NCBI RefSeq assembly: GCF_022869165.1
Contig: NZ_CP094929.1
Coordinates: 1,798,001 to 1,862,000 of the forward strand
Source of the DNA: Sphaerochaeta associata
GTDB taxonomy: Bacteria; Spirochaetota; Spirochaetia; Sphaerochaetales; Sphaerochaetaceae
DNA length: 64,000 nucleotides
Direction of reading: 5' to 3'
Part shown: positions 16,207-22,470 of the stretch, piece by piece
How positions within the stretch are numbered: position 1 is the stretch's first letter
Layout: the number at the start of each line of letters is the position of its first letter
Made by a program: the position numbers and the translations under genes
The notes under the pieces: model-generated
Database searches by the model: none
Seen by the model: the letters and a program-made list of their open reading frames with translations, nothing else
Told to the model about the DNA's origin: nothing

Positions 16207-16235
16207 TTGATTACTTAACATATATATAGTATATC
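16207..16235 (+). promoter_or_regulatory. Promoter of the DUF72-imuB-dnaE2 operon
   Basis: TTGATT (16207-16212), 17-bp spacer, TATATC (16230-16235), only 6 nt before the ATG at 16242 and with no Shine-Dalgarno between. This suggests a leaderless transcript. The spacer is an alternating AT run that could also hold a damage-response operator, but no LexA-type consensus could be assigned. Confidence 0.5.
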
Positions 16236-16241
16236 TGAAGT

Positions 16242-17069
16242 ATGAGTACCATTCTGATAGGAACTTCAGGCTACAGCTATACCGAGTGGGTGGGCCCCGT
16301 ATATCCCAAGGGCACCAAGAGCGAGGAGTTTCTTGCCTCGTATGCACAGCTGTTTCCCACCGTTGAACTGAACTTCAGCTACTACCGCATGCCCGAGGCC
16401 GCCCAGCTTGCCTTGATGCATCAGACAGCACCTTCGCTCAGGTTTTCCATCAAGGCGCATCAAAGCCTCACCCATGTCATCGATGCCCGGCAGTGGAGGG
16501 AACAGGCAACCTTGTTCCGTCGTTCCCTGGAACCGCTTCTATCACACAATGTCCTGGATGCAGTGTTGTTGCAATTTCCCTCCTCCTTCCATTATGAGGT
16601 CGACCAGAGAAAGTATTTGGACTCACTGCTCAGGGTCCTTTCCCCGCTTCCCTTGGCAGTGGAGTTCCGCAACAGTCGGTGGTACAACAACCGGACCCTC
16701 GATTCACTGAGGGAGCGGCGGGTCTGCTTTGTCTCCCTCGACCTTCCCCAGATCCAAGGCAACCCCCCTGTCATGGATGTCCCCACTTCATCACTTGCCT
16801 ACCTGCGCCTGCACGGGAGAAACAAGGAGACGTGGTGGGGTTCCGATGCAGCAAGCAGGTATGACTATCTGTACAGCGACAGCGAACTGAAAGCCCTGCT
16901 GGAACGGGTTCTCTCACTGACGGTAGGGTCGCAAACGATCCTGGTGTACTTCAACAACCATCGCAGGGGACAGGCGGTTGCCAATGCCAAGCATCTCAGA
17001 GAGTTGCTTGCGGCAAGCGGAGGTGAGGCATGCATGAGTCAGAAGCAAGCATTGTCCACGTCAACATAA
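16242..17069 (+). CDS. DUF72 (YecE-like) TIM-barrel protein
   Basis: 275-residue cytosolic protein of the DUF72/YecE family, whose biochemical role is not established. The family N-terminus ILIGTSGYSYTEW is followed by LNFSYYRMP, FSIKAHQSLTH, AVEFRNSRWY and YLRLHGRNKETWWG, the conserved blocks of the fold. The C-terminal segment LVYFNNHRRGQAVANA matches the family ending. It overlaps the next gene (ImuB-like) by 40 bp, so the two are translationally linked. It occupies the place that ImuA or a LexA-like gene has in classical mutasome cassettes, which suggests a role in DNA repair; that part is inference. Confidence 0.88.
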   Translation: MSTILIGTSGYSYTEWVGPVYPKGTKSEEFLASYAQLFPTVELNFSYYRMPEAAQLALMHQTAPSLRFSIKAHQSLTHVIDARQWREQATLFRRSLEPLLSHNVLDAVLLQFPSSFHYEVDQRKYLDSLLRVLSPLPLAVEFRNSRWYNNRTLDSLRERRVCFVSLDLPQIQGNPPVMDVPTSSLAYLRLHGRNKETWWGSDAASRYDYLYSDSELKALLERVLSLTVGSQTILVYFNNHRRGQAVANAKHLRELLAASGGEACMSQKQALSTST

Positions 17070-18208
17070 CAGACTTCGCTGCAGCGGTTGCCATCGCAAA
17101 GCAGCCGCGTCTTGCAACCCGTCCGTTCGCCATAGCCCTCGAAGGTTCAGCAAGGAGGGTGGTCATCACAGCCTCCCGCAAGGCTTGGGAGGAGGGCATC
17201 CGCGTCGGCATGCCGGTCAGTACAGCCCAGCGCATGCTTCCCGCTCTGGAAGTACTGCCTCCCGACACCCAATCGGCGGCCAAGGCTGACAGCGCCATTG
17301 CCTCCCTGGTGGCATCCTACTCGCCTGACATCCAGTGCGACAAAGGCGGACATGTCTATCTGGACATGAAGGGAACAGGCCGCCTCTTCGGTCCTGTGAT
17401 GGACAGCGCCCTGAAAATTCGCAAGGAGATCCGCGAACAGCTTGGCCTTGAAGGTGCGGTGGCCGTAGCCTCAAACAAGCTGGTGGCGAAAATCGGGACG
17501 AGGGCGATCAGACCCTGTGGGTTGGCCCACATCCGTGAGGGTGAGGAAGCCTCGTTTCTGGCCAGCCAGGATGTCGGTCTGCTCTCGGGGGTGGGAAGTG
17601 CCATCGCCAGGCTGCTGGAGGTGGCAGGCATCACCCAGATCGGCCAGATAGCAGCCCTGGACGACAACCAGATCATTGCCTTTCTCGGCAGACGCGGGCT
17701 CGCCCTGCGCGACGCCGCCCGCGGCTTGGACACCTCATCACTGCAAAAAGGTGTGATGAACAAGCGCTTCATTCTGCGAAAGGTCAACTTCTCTGAGCCG
17801 ATTCTCAGTCTTGACGAGCTCAAGGCCGCCGTGTTCGCATCAGCCGAAGATGCCGCCCTGCAGATGAGAATGGAGAGCATGGGCTGCCAGGCGGTCCACA
17901 TCATGCTCTTTTGGAGTGACGGAAGAACCAGTGAGGCAACCAGGCGGACCAAGGGACAGTGGGTATACGACCATGAGATAGAGACCTCGCTCTTTCAGGC
18001 GGCAATGCAGGCGATGGGACGCAGGGTCAGGCTTTTAGCCTTCACCATCAAGCTGTTTGAATTGGGACCGGTATTCGGACAAACAGACCTGTTCATCCCC
18101 GATGTCCTGCAGAAACAGCAATCGCTGCAACACTCAATCGACGAGGTACGCCAAAGGTTCGGGCCGGGCATCCTCACCCATGCAACGGCCCTTTGCCATG
18201 GAAACTAG
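17030..18208 (+). CDS. imuB: ImuB-like Y-family DNA polymerase, catalytic residues lost
   Basis: 392 residues with a Y-family polymerase fold: palm/fingers about 8-165, thumb HhH-like region about 180-235, little-finger domain about 240-345. The metal ligands are missing. The first motif reads VHVNITDF where DinB has an Asp (VDMDAFF-type), and the SIDEAFLD-type motif is replaced by KGGHVYLD. This is the pattern of ImuB, a non-catalytic clamp/polymerase adaptor. A beta-clamp-binding pentapeptide QTDLF lies at 351-355. The ATG at 17030 follows GGAGG by 6 nt. It overlaps DUF72 upstream and the DnaE2-like gene downstream (11 bp), so all three are expected to be made together after DNA damage. Confidence 0.85.
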   Translation: MHESEASIVHVNITDFAAAVAIAKQPRLATRPFAIALEGSARRVVITASRKAWEEGIRVGMPVSTAQRMLPALEVLPPDTQSAAKADSAIASLVASYSPDIQCDKGGHVYLDMKGTGRLFGPVMDSALKIRKEIREQLGLEGAVAVASNKLVAKIGTRAIRPCGLAHIREGEEASFLASQDVGLLSGVGSAIARLLEVAGITQIGQIAALDDNQIIAFLGRRGLALRDAARGLDTSSLQKGVMNKRFILRKVNFSEPILSLDELKAAVFASAEDAALQMRMESMGCQAVHIMLFWSDGRTSEATRRTKGQWVYDHEIETSLFQAAMQAMGRRVRLLAFTIKLFELGPVFGQTDLFIPDVLQKQQSLQHSIDEVRQRFGPGILTHATALCHGN

Positions 18209-21110
18209 GCTTTCCATTACAACCAGTTACTCCCTCTTGTGGGGGACCATGCAGCCAAGGCTTCTGTTCGACAGGCTCAAGCAATGGAATGTGAAAAAGG
18301 TCGCCGTAACCGACCGAGACAGCCTCTGCGGGTACCCTGCCTGCAGGGAGGAAGCCCAGCGGTGCGATATCGAGCTCATCTGTGCAGCAGCCCTGACTGA
18401 AGGAGATGGCGAAATCCATGCCTTCGTGCAGAATCAGAAGGGGTATGAGAAGCTGTGCCTGCTGCTTACCAAGCGTGCAGAAGATGGTGCCTTCTCCTAC
18501 CTTCCCTCCTTGCTTGCAGACAGCGAGGGGCTTGTGCTTGCCACAAGCAGCCCGACCCTGCTCGCAACGCTTGCCAAAAGCAAGGCCGACCTGTATGCAG
18601 CTGTCACCCCGTCCTGTCTTGCCTCCGTTCAGACTGCGCGAAGACTCGGTCTTCGCCTGCTTGCCTGTGATGATGCCCTGCTGCTGGAAAAAGAGGACGA
18701 GGAGGTCCATCGCATCCTGCGTTGCATGGCCTTGCACAAGACCGTCGGTTCACTGCAAAAAGAAGATTGCGCGGTTTCCAGCAACGTTCTGCTCGACTCT
18801 GAGAAGTGGAACCAAGCCTTCTCGTGCTGGCCCGAGGCGGTACACAATGCAAGGAAGCTGGCGGCCTACAACCCCTTCCCATCATCACTCATCTTCCCCG
18901 ACTATCCGGTTGAGGATTCGGCACAGGAGCTGGAAAAACGGGTCCTCAGTGGTGCCGAAATTCGCTATGGGGAGGTCAATGATGCCATACTGGAACGCAT
19001 CACCTATGAACTGCACATCATCGGCAGCAAGGGTTTTGCACCGTACTTCTTGGTCATGCACGATATCGTGCAGATGAGCAGCCGCACATGCGGGCGCGGC
19101 TCGGGGGCCGCCTCGATCGTCTCCTATTGCCTGTTCATCACCAATGTCGATCCCTTGGCCCATCATCTGTACTTTGAACGCTTTCTCTCCCCTTCCCGCC
19201 TCGACCCTCCCGATATCGATGTCGACTTTGCCTGGGATGAGCGCGACGGAGTCTTTGCCGCCGTCTTTGAGCGGTTCGGCCGCGAGCACTGTGCACGGGT
19301 GGCAAACCACAACAGCTTCAGGCTGCGCGGGGCGGTCAGGGAGACAGGACGCTGCTTCGGCCTCAGTGATACACAGATCAGTGAGGCTGAAAAGAGGTTG
19401 TTCATCAGCGGCCTGAAAGACCTCGACGATCCTTTGTGGCAGACCATCTGTCGCATAGCAACGAAGCTTGAAGGGCTGCCCAAGGAGATCTCCATGCACT
19501 GCGGAGGCTTGGTCATCACCCCAAGGCCGGTCTACTGCTATGCACCGCTGAGGTTGAGCAGTGACGGGTACCCCTTGCTTGCCTGGGAGAAGGAAGGGAC
19601 CGAGATGGCGGGATTTGTAAAGATCGACCTCTTGGGGAACCGCTCACTTGCCGTCATCCGCGACACGTTGGAGAACCTGGAGGAAGAGCAAATCCATATC
19701 GACCAGCGGTTGTGGCACCCCACAGAGGACGCTCCCACCATCGCCGCCCTTGCCAGAGGGGATTCGATGGGAGTCTTCTACATAGAATCGCCGGCAATGC
19801 GGCAGCTGCAGAAAAAAACCGGCCGCGGGGATTTCGAGCACATTGTCATCCACTCCTCGATCATCCGCCCTGCGGCGAACAAGTTCATCGCCGAGTATGT
19901 CGAGCGCCTTCGCGGCAAGATGTGGGAACCGTTGCATCCCAGGCTTGCCTACATCCTTGATGAGACCTACGGCATCCTCTGCTATCAGGAGGATGTGTCC
20001 AAGACCGCTGTCGCTCTTGCCGGCTTCAGCGAGTCCGATGCTGACAAGCTGCGCAAGGTCATCGCCAAGAAAGCCGGAGGAGAAAAACTCAAGGTTTACC
20101 GCCAGCAGTTCTTCGACGGGTGCAGTGCCAATAATGTAAGCGAAGAGACGACGCGGATAATCTGGGAGATGATGCTCAGCTTCGACGGCTACTCCTTTTG
20201 CAAGCCGCACTCAGCCTCCTATGCCATGGTCTCCTTCCAAAGCGCATATCTGAGGGTTCACCACCCTTCTCATTTCATGGCCGCCGTCCTGTCCAACCAA
20301 GGAGGCTACTATCGCAGCCAGGCCTACATCAGCGAGGCACGGAGAATGGGAATCCATGTGGAAGGCCCGGATATCAACCATAGCAGGATCCTCTACCATG
20401 CCCAAGGAAATACCTTGTTCATCGGTCTGATGGCCGTTGCCAACCTGACCTGGCAGGCAAGAGAACAAATTCTGGAGGAAAGAAAGAAAAGAGGCCCGTT
20501 CACAGACCTCAAGGATGCCTCTTCAAGACTCAGCCTATGCCGCGAGGACTGGGTATCCTTGGTGGAGAGCGGCTGTTGCGACAGCCTGGGACCACAGTAC
20601 CGGCGCAGCGAGCAGTTGAGAATCCTGCTCACCAATGCAGTGAGAAATACGTCCTCCGACCAATTGGAACTCTTCTCACCCGAGAAGCATATACCTGTAC
20701 AAACACGGGCTCTGGTGCAGGTCAAACGCACCGAGGATGAACTGCATCGTGAGTTCTCGGCCTTGGGCTTTTTGCGCACCAGTCATCCCCTGCTGTTGTG
20801 GTCGCAGTATCTGAAGGGTCTCAAGCGGGTAAAAGCTTCAGAGCTTGGTCGGCACAGGGGGCGCTATGTGAATCTCATCGGCTATCAAATCACCCAGAAG
20901 CAGGTCATGACCAAAGGCGGACAGAGCATGAGCTTCGTTTCCTTCGAGGATGAGACGGCCCTCTATGAAACAGTTCTGTTTCCCGACCTCTACCAACGCT
21001 TCTATCCACTGCTCTCCACCTTGTGGCCCTTGGTGGTGTTCGGGTTGGTGCAGGACGACCAAGGGGCCTTGGTGGTGGAGGTGCAACACCTTAGGAAAGT
21101 TGGTTCCTAA
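18198..21110 (+). CDS. dnaE2: DnaE2-like error-prone DNA polymerase III alpha subunit
   Basis: About 970 residues, C-family polymerase. The start METRLSITTSYSLLWG at 18198 overlaps the ImuB stop; a longer frame from 18057 lies wholly inside imuB. The N-terminal PHP domain is degenerate, with SITTSY where metal-binding PHP domains have HxH. The polymerase active site is intact: two Asp in PPDIDVDF (near 340) and the third in FVKIDLLGNRS (near 475). A tandem HhH region and an OB fold (VNLIGYQITQKQ to the end) follow. A clamp-binding QLELF lies at 822-826. Lacking its own proofreading site and paired with an inactive ImuB, it should act in translesion synthesis. It ends 20 bp into the convergent photolyase gene. 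Confidence 0.88.
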   Translation: METRLSITTSYSLLWGTMQPRLLFDRLKQWNVKKVAVTDRDSLCGYPACREEAQRCDIELICAAALTEGDGEIHAFVQNQKGYEKLCLLLTKRAEDGAFSYLPSLLADSEGLVLATSSPTLLATLAKSKADLYAAVTPSCLASVQTARRLGLRLLACDDALLLEKEDEEVHRILRCMALHKTVGSLQKEDCAVSSNVLLDSEKWNQAFSCWPEAVHNARKLAAYNPFPSSLIFPDYPVEDSAQELEKRVLSGAEIRYGEVNDAILERITYELHIIGSKGFAPYFLVMHDIVQMSSRTCGRGSGAASIVSYCLFITNVDPLAHHLYFERFLSPSRLDPPDIDVDFAWDERDGVFAAVFERFGREHCARVANHNSFRLRGAVRETGRCFGLSDTQISEAEKRLFISGLKDLDDPLWQTICRIATKLEGLPKEISMHCGGLVITPRPVYCYAPLRLSSDGYPLLAWEKEGTEMAGFVKIDLLGNRSLAVIRDTLENLEEEQIHIDQRLWHPTEDAPTIAALARGDSMGVFYIESPAMRQLQKKTGRGDFEHIVIHSSIIRPAANKFIAEYVERLRGKMWEPLHPRLAYILDETYGILCYQEDVSKTAVALAGFSESDADKLRKVIAKKAGGEKLKVYRQQFFDGCSANNVSEETTRIIWEMMLSFDGYSFCKPHSASYAMVSFQSAYLRVHHPSHFMAAVLSNQGGYYRSQAYISEARRMGIHVEGPDINHSRILYHAQGNTLFIGLMAVANLTWQAREQILEERKKRGPFTDLKDASSRLSLCREDWVSLVESGCCDSLGPQYRRSEQLRILLTNAVRNTSSDQLELFSPEKHIPVQTRALVQVKRTEDELHREFSALGFLRTSHPLLLWSQYLKGLKRVKASELGRHRGRYVNLIGYQITQKQVMTKGGQSMSFVSFEDETALYETVLFPDLYQRFYPLLSTLWPLVVFGLVQDDQGALVVEVQHLRKVGS

Positions 21111-22470
21111 GCACAATTTCCTGCTCGATTCGTGCAAGATAGCCCTTCATATTGAATTTTCGTTCCAATCCCTTGTCGTTCATATAACGGATGTTGCCGA
21201 AGATCGCCCGCTCGGCCCAAGGCCTGTCATGCTTGCCGAAGCACCAGGCAACCCCGGCATAACCGTTGGGGTCGCGCCCGTCCATCTGATAGGTGTTGTT
21301 CAACGCCAGGGCACGGTTGAATGCTTCCTTGGGAGTGGGGCTCCATTCAAGGATTTTCTTTCCCCAGTACATGCGCAGGTAGTTGTGCATGGTTCCCAGC
21401 TCGGTCAACTCCCTCTGTGCTGCATTCCAATACGGGTCATGGGTCTGTCCCTGCTCCAGCTCGGCAAACGTATACAGCACCGGCCTTCTGTCCTGCTCGT
21501 GAAACGAGAGGCTCTTCCGAGCCCAGGCAGGCAGTCCTTCAAAGGAGTCGTATAGGGGATTGAACCAGACATAGTTATAGGCAAGTTCCCTTCGCACAAT
21601 GAGCTCTTCCAAAAACACCCGTGCATCGGCAAGGTTGGTGTCATGCACTGCATGGTAGATATCGATCGCACTGATCTGCCCGAAATGCAGGTAGGGACTC
21701 AGGCCGGAACCGTGGCTGTTCGATGGATCGTTGCGCAAGGTCGCATAGCCGTCGAGTTTGGACTCGACGAACAAGGCGAGTTTTTTCTGCGCTTCAGCCT
21801 CCCCTCCTTTGAGGTGGGGGCAGGATGCCCCCTTGCTGTCAAGGGAGAGCGAATCCAAGACCTGTGAAAGGTTCGACAGCTTTATTGGATCAAATGGAGG
21901 CTCCTCCGAAAGAGCACAGAGATGAGGTGCCTCAATTTCGATGGCTTGGGCGAAATAGGCGATCATGCTTTCAATCTTGCGCCTGAGTGTTGCCGCCGAA
22001 TACTCTTCCTTATCCGACACAGCTTCAAGGGGCACGATGACATTTGTCTCGACTTCGTAGAAGGGACAGAGGCTGAAACCAGCTGCTTGCTTTCGCCAAA
22101 GACGCTCGGCTCGTGTGTATGCCCGGTCGGTCACCAGGACGCACACCGACGGCATGAGCTTTGCAAGGCCCGCAAGGATTCCATCATGATGCACCCAAAA
22201 TGGGATGCCAAGCGATTGCAACGTCTGCTGCACCTCGGCAAGGCCTTCCAGCATGAATTGGAAGTGACGTCTCTGGGCTGCTGAAAAATTCCTTTCCAGG
22301 CCGAAGTAGACAACCAGGGGCTTTTTCAAGGCGTTTGCCTGCTCGATGGCAAATGCAAGTGCTTCATTTTGTCGCACCCGTTGGGCGGCCTGCATCCAAT
22401 ACACGACATACGAGCCGGCCTTATTGACCGGATTGTCAGCCGTTTTTATGATTCTCTGCGCTTCGATCAT
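21091..22470 (-). CDS. phr: Class II CPD deoxyribodipyrimidine photolyase
   Basis: 459 residues. It repairs cyclobutane pyrimidine dimers using FADH- and blue light. Class II hallmarks are YVVYWMQAAQRVRQNEAL near the N-terminus, the FAD region SGLSPYLHFGQIS, LIVRRELAYNY, and the C-terminal NNTYQMDGRDPNGYAGVAWCFGKHDRPW. It is the last gene of a CrtI-like, DUF3795, photolyase run (35-bp gap) and meets the DnaE2-like gene tail to tail with a 20-bp overlap. There is no ribosome site before the ATG, but TATGCT lies 6 nt upstream, so a separate leaderless transcript is possible. Confidence 0.93.
   Translation of the reverse strand: MIEAQRIIKTADNPVNKAGSYVVYWMQAAQRVRQNEALAFAIEQANALKKPLVVYFGLERNFSAAQRRHFQFMLEGLAEVQQTLQSLGIPFWVHHDGILAGLAKLMPSVCVLVTDRAYTRAERLWRKQAAGFSLCPFYEVETNVIVPLEAVSDKEEYSAATLRRKIESMIAYFAQAIEIEAPHLCALSEEPPFDPIKLSNLSQVLDSLSLDSKGASCPHLKGGEAEAQKKLALFVESKLDGYATLRNDPSNSHGSGLSPYLHFGQISAIDIYHAVHDTNLADARVFLEELIVRRELAYNYVWFNPLYDSFEGLPAWARKSLSFHEQDRRPVLYTFAELEQGQTHDPYWNAAQRELTELGTMHNYLRMYWGKKILEWSPTPKEAFNRALALNNTYQMDGRDPNGYAGVAWCFGKHDRPWAERAIFGNIRYMNDKGLERKFNMKGYLARIEQEIVLRNQLS

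Follow-up and report, generated by a model that had tools for sequence, protein, structure and literature searches.

A DUF72 protein gene conserved with inactive Y-family and DnaE2-type polymerase genes in an operon of Sphaerochaeta and its relatives

Comparative analysis of a 64,000-nucleotide window from Sphaerochaeta associata (NZ_CP094929.1) supports a DUF72 protein as a conserved, co-inherited and apparently co-regulated part of a translesion-polymerase operon. The operon (the cassette) is predicted to encode the DUF72 protein, an inactive Y-family polymerase (iPolY) and a DnaE2-type polymerase, in that order. We provisionally regard this combination as a new form of the DnaE2-iPolY(-RecA) mutasome, provisionally because our literature search was limited to open-access texts. 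The features of the cassette, in window coordinates, are as follows.

16207-16235, plus strand: predicted promoter TTGATT-17-TATATC, upstream of the cassette and conserved across Spirochaetota
16213-16230, in the promoter spacer: palindromic operator ACTTAAC-atat-ATATAGT, a degenerate form of ACTATAC-N4-GTATAGT
16242-17069, plus strand: DUF72 protein gene, 275 aa; Pfam PF01904, E 8.9e-59, 199.6 bits, profile positions 1-217 of 217
17019-17026, plus strand: Shine-Dalgarno-like GGAGGTGA, within the DUF72 coding sequence, 3 nt ahead of the iPolY ATG
17030-18208, plus strand: iPolY gene (inactive Y-family polymerase, ImuB-like), 392 aa; Pfam IMS, E 1.6e-27
18198-21110, plus strand: DnaE2-type C-family polymerase gene, 970 aa from its ATG; Pfam DNA_pol3_alpha, E 2.1e-58

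The first-pass annotation described three overlapping genes, and we recovered the same open reading frames with the same overlaps, of 40 bp between DUF72 and iPolY and 11 bp between iPolY and DnaE2. We used the ATG at 18198 as the DnaE2 start; a mechanical open reading frame list reaches back to a TTG at 18057. The position of GGAGGTGA ahead of the iPolY ATG suggests translational coupling. The 40-bp overlap is not kept among relatives, several of which have a short gap instead. The host genome, a single 3.55-Mb contig whose relatives are Sphaerochaeta, in agreement with an earlier guess of spirochaete origin, also encodes a distinct replicative DnaE1 (1176 aa, at G000:C1:3364041), a distinct, active-looking Pol IV and a second DUF72 gene distant from the cassette. 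Higher G+C at 16-22 kb had raised the idea of a horizontal island, which we rejected; GC3 gives no island signal, being 0.67-0.70 in the three genes and much the same, 0.67, in the GGDEF gene upstream.

Adjacency of DUF72 to the polymerase genes, proposed as a survey in the first-pass annotation, is conserved among relatives. A scan of named genomes with a Y-protein alignment returned 80 loci, a set chosen by similarity to DUF72-bearing members that overstates the frequency of DUF72 relative to an even draw of genomes; within it, the order DUF72-iPolY-DnaE2 was found at 31 of 32 spirochaete loci (Sphaerochaeta and relatives, and termite-gut Treponema) and at 36 of 41 further loci, mostly from Desulfobacterota. 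Of the five exceptions in the latter set, which have no DUF72 directly upstream, at least one lies at the edge of a contig. The cassette occurs in four genera of the host's own family, where a Y protein, when present, has DUF72 upstream and DnaE downstream except at contig edges and in one broken case. The same arrangement is carried by a mobilizable (MOBQ) plasmid of Desulfosarcina ovata, on which the successive annotations read lexA, DUF72, "hypothetical protein" and "DNA polymerase III subunit alpha". The gene order is more than chance. That DUF72 is a passenger, whose neighborhood is accidental and has no functional link, would be in keeping with the sister operons that lack it; this explanation is strongly disfavored and in our estimate extremely improbable, because the order is kept down to Y-protein identities of about 30%, in two phyla and on a plasmid, and because the presence of the genes is linked and their divergence congruent.

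Pairwise divergences of DUF72, iPolY and DnaE2 correlate closely (r 0.95-0.97 across 42 loci, and 0.91-0.96 when each group is taken separately), which we read as joint inheritance and not interaction, since shared vertical descent also predicts such a correlation. Among the Desulfobacterota genomes searched that carry the cassette, most have no DUF72 besides the cassette copy, and two genomes with iPolY-DnaE2 operons lacking DUF72 contain none at all. The 66 cassette DUF72s cluster in the DUF72 tree, with two label changes compared with a mean of 19.9 after shuffling; five stand-alone spirochaete DUF72s fall among the cassette members. Elsewhere most DUF72s stand alone, and the family was found in 9 of 14 control genomes of bacteria and archaea.

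To give a base rate for DUF72 in iPolY-DnaE2 operons, 79 Desulfobacterota genomes were drawn evenly. They contained about eight such operons, mostly behind a lexA-like gene. Cassette-type DUF72 was present only in the centre genome, and about seven other iPolY-DnaE2 loci were without it, making it dispensable to the general machine; at one more of these operons a divergent, broken DUF72 lies upstream of lexA. The draw counters the suggestion that DUF72 is nearly universal in these operons. The wider module is lexA-iPolY-DnaE2, to which DUF72 has been added in particular lineages.

The Y-family protein appears to be catalytically inactive. Where Pol IV has the catalytic acidic residues D, D and E, 41 spirochaete sequences and nearly all of 42 further iPolY sequences have others, mostly N, G and H. 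The layout of the protein, for which a structural model also serves as evidence, comprises palm, thumb and little finger, followed by the beta-clamp pentapeptide QTDLF at residues 351-355, located exactly where it had been annotated, and a tail with a conserved A/V-D-x-x-R-x-R-F-G. The best Pfam match of this tail is DUF4113 in five of five tails (E 0.0018-0.092, all under the 24-bit cut-off), a family reported to be homologous to the RecA N-terminus, or RecA-NT (Timinskas and Venclovas, PMC6511836). The tail is thus a probable RecA-binding motif. A profile of the tail matched against the host's own RecA gave no match above shuffled sequences, and RecA binding by iPolY is accordingly treated as presumptive. 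In strict ImuB proteins the ImuB-C domain, of about 80 residues, is located after the RecA-NT motif; iPolY ends about 14 residues past its RecA-NT-like motif and, judged from this length, has no ImuB-C domain. With such a tail and no room for ImuB-C, RecA is the expected partner. The label "ImuB-like" given to this protein therefore describes an inactive Y-family protein correctly, but not an ImuB in the strict sense.

The cassette DnaE2 is a second, non-replicative DnaE in which the polymerase catalytic Asp residues are conserved, whereas the PHP metal site is degraded, metal ligands that the host's DnaE1 possesses being replaced; these features place it with DnaE2 and not DnaE1. A segment, IHSSIIRPAAN, is conserved and differs from DnaE1. 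Intact aspartates together with replaced PHP ligands point to an active polymerase that is probably non-proofreading, at least with respect to PHP proofreading. The clamp pentapeptide QLELF begins at residue 822 (822-826), as the first reading of the protein had it. Clamp motifs are recognizable in the spirochaete DnaE2 proteins; the aligned region is variable in Desulfobacterota.

The first-pass annotation placed DUF72 in the role of ImuA, taking over as the missing mutasome subunit. DUF72 does occupy the first operon position, and the expectation that no separate imuA exists was borne out by a PF00154 search of the whole host genome, which returned only RecA, a weak RadA-type match and a weak ATPase match. 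The fold nonetheless speaks against such a replacement, DUF72 being a TIM barrel and ImuA RecA-like, and the iPolY tail resembles a RecA-binding motif with no ImuB-C domain following it. Moreover, sister lexA-iPolY-DnaE2 operons exist with neither ImuA nor DUF72, which leaves no empty ImuA position for DUF72 to fill. We consider substitution for ImuA very unlikely. The broader proposal, that DUF72 is an accessory of a translesion polymerase, gains from the conserved association and co-inheritance and survives in a version that does not involve ImuA.

An AlphaFold2 model of the DUF72 protein (pLDDT 91.3) is a TIM barrel whose closest structure is 1vpq (TM1631; Z 33.0, 38% identity). The next folds are MbnB (Z 15.4), UVDE (Z 14.7), endonuclease IV (Z 13.7) and sugar epimerases, all near one another, and the fit to UVDE or endonuclease IV is no better than that to MbnB or the sugar epimerases. 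UVDE and endonuclease IV belong to the xylose-isomerase fold group, which the DUF72 barrel resembles. Residues common to both cassette groups include E42, N44, K71, Q111, E141, R143, D167, R189, H191, N238, N239 and H240, most of which are placed in the model where barrel strands end on their C-terminal side, or immediately beyond, usually the location of TIM-barrel active sites. DUF72 is therefore more likely to be an enzyme than a scaffold, with a reaction not readable from its fold.

The enzymatic-looking pocket is largely common to stand-alone members of the family as well. This would suit a co-regulated repair enzyme that acts alone, for instance on damaged DNA or nucleotides, outside any polymerase complex, as would the widespread and mostly stand-alone occurrence of DUF72 and the iPolY-DnaE2 operons of other genomes that do without it. 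Against it count the position of DUF72, first and beside iPolY across two phyla, its being usually the sole DUF72 of cassette-bearing Desulfobacterota genomes, and the closeness with which its divergence tracks that of iPolY and DnaE2. We regard a lone role as possible but doubtful.

Co-regulation is suggested by the region upstream of DUF72. Spirochaetota cassettes share a promoter of the form TTGATT-17-TATAT(C/A), the spacer of which holds ACTATAC-N4-GTATAGT; the left half-site of the window operator is degenerate. The -10 box ends about 6 nt ahead of the DUF72 ATG, which makes a leaderless or near-leaderless start likely. A generic sigma-70 scan called no promoter in this upstream region. 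The cassette operator is the sole match with zero mismatches to ACTWWACNNNNRTATAGT in the host genome. The perfect palindrome CTATAC-N4-GTATAG was found in 8 of 61 genomes of the family, in seven of them as a single copy directly upstream of the cassette DUF72, and in the eighth as two matches, neither near a cassette. A general SOS box was considered and rejected, mismatch-tolerant searches giving 57 operator matches genome-wide compared with 150 for the reversed control.

The host genome encodes LexA, and the cassette operator is absent upstream of both host recA and host lexA, so that either the LexA regulon is very small here or another regulator is at work. At 27 of the 41 mostly-Desulfobacterota loci a gene of the LexA cluster is present, usually immediately upstream of the cassette, and a representative protein of this cluster is LexA by Pfam. 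In termite Treponema, a divergent gene for an S24-peptidase (XRE-S24) repressor lies beside the cassette; this repressor was rejected as the regulator in the host, where it has no match. We infer that LexA may control the cassette in the host genome.

Among known systems, the cassette fits the putative DnaE2B-iPolY-RecA mutasome (gbDinB2 and scDinB2 types; PMC12926913, PMC6511836), judged from gene content and iPolY. Both lack ImuA and often include lexA in the operon, and both combine an active DnaE2 with an inactive PolY that bears a clamp motif and a tail resembling RecA-NT; only the present cassette has DUF72 ahead of iPolY. The 2026 census of DnaE2 (PMC12926913), in which the word DUF72 was not found, describes DnaE2B systems that have neither ImuA nor ImuB and whose partners are RecA and a PolY, either active or inactive. 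The ImuA-ImuB-DnaE2 mutasome likewise combines an inactive Y-family protein and DnaE2 in one operon, with a damage-linked regulator at some loci, but the cassette lacks ImuA, its Y protein lacks ImuB-C and DUF72 is added.

A third comparison, and the nearest precedent in print for the cassette link, is with PolB2 mutasome operons, near which DUF72 is "enriched to some degree" and its UVDE-like fold was remarked upon (PMC11791011). There, too, DUF72 (with SRAP) neighbors a multi-subunit translesion polymerase, although theirs is a B-family polymerase with iRadA and PPB2. The cassette DUF72 shares its fold with the structurally characterized members of the family, TM1631 (1vpq) and EF0366 (1vpy/1ztv); the literature searched held no description of a polymerase linkage for either, and DNA binding by TM1631 is a prediction only (PMC3828134). 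No link of DUF72 to DnaE2 or to inactive PolY was found in the open-access literature (subscription papers and supplements lay outside the search), nor any assigned function for DUF72 in the literature searched, including the titles and abstracts on E. coli yecE.

Membership of DUF72 in the polymerase module is well supported. We think it rather probable that the cassette specifies a complex for DNA-damage tolerance, of the DnaE2B-iPolY-RecA kind, to which DUF72 has been added as an accessory. In such a complex, DnaE2 would be the active, probably non-proofreading polymerase, and iPolY would be the hub, binding the sliding clamp through QTDLF, RecA at the filament end through its RecA-NT tail, and DnaE2. 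DUF72, as a TIM-barrel enzyme, would recognize or process the damaged or abasic template or primer end, allowing gap filling by DnaE2. We infer the RecA binding and the physical assembly of the complex from these parts. The chemistry of DUF72 is the least certain element; it is most likely an enzymatic accessory that would act on damaged DNA for the DnaE2 mutasome. The more specific proposal, that DUF72 is a catalytic mutasome subunit, docked on iPolY and RecA and processing lesions or abasic sites for DnaE2, is offered tentatively and may well not hold.

The cassette link and the published PolB2 enrichment together suggest that DUF72 joins unrelated translesion polymerases. In two phyla, spirochaetes and sulfate reducers, it is tightly linked to a single defined complex around an error-prone polymerase, which makes a role for the family in DNA-damage tolerance testable. 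Should DUF72 prove to be a catalytic mutasome subunit, this would be the first function for a family found in both bacteria and archaea.

The predicted cassette promoter (window 16207-16241) places the transcript start at or beside the DUF72 ATG, which has no visible Shine-Dalgarno sequence ahead of it. From the position of this start, the cassette may be transcribed as a leaderless mRNA. At its other end, the cassette abuts a gene on the opposite strand:

21091-22470, minus strand, cryptochrome/photolyase-family gene (PF00875, E 8.3e-20)

This gene and DnaE2 are convergent in the window, their 3' ends overlapping by about 20 bp, and a downstream minus-strand cluster was found again in six Sphaerochaeta-type loci.

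In the S. associata genome, no copy of the palindromic cassette operator was found at recA (G000:C1:1654406) or lexA (G000:C1:980499), and the SOS regulon of Sphaerochaeta may therefore be unusual or very small. Four termite-gut Treponema loci (L073, L075, L079, and L080) have a divergent HTH-S24-peptidase repressor in place of LexA at the head of the cassette. In some of them, the interval that separates repressor and cassette contains TATAGTATATACTATA-like inverted repeats.

A contig filed under a Burkholderiaceae metagenome bin (L049, JANJVG010000209.1) shows 99% identity to the Y protein of the window and is probably a misbinned Sphaerochaeta contig. Loci from other spirochaete families (L031-L037) contain a DnaE2-like gene, with no PolY, ImuA, or DUF72 adjoining it within the stretches read. 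The lexA-iPolY-DnaE2 operon of L216 (G211) has a divergent, broken DUF72 gene upstream of lexA, possibly an independent recruitment of DUF72. Desulfosarcina ovata carries the lexA-DUF72-iPolY-dnaE2 module on a plasmid (L236; NZ_AP021877.1, 57380-70270) that is mobilizable and encodes a Ti-type TraA relaxase, a route by which this module could be transferred.
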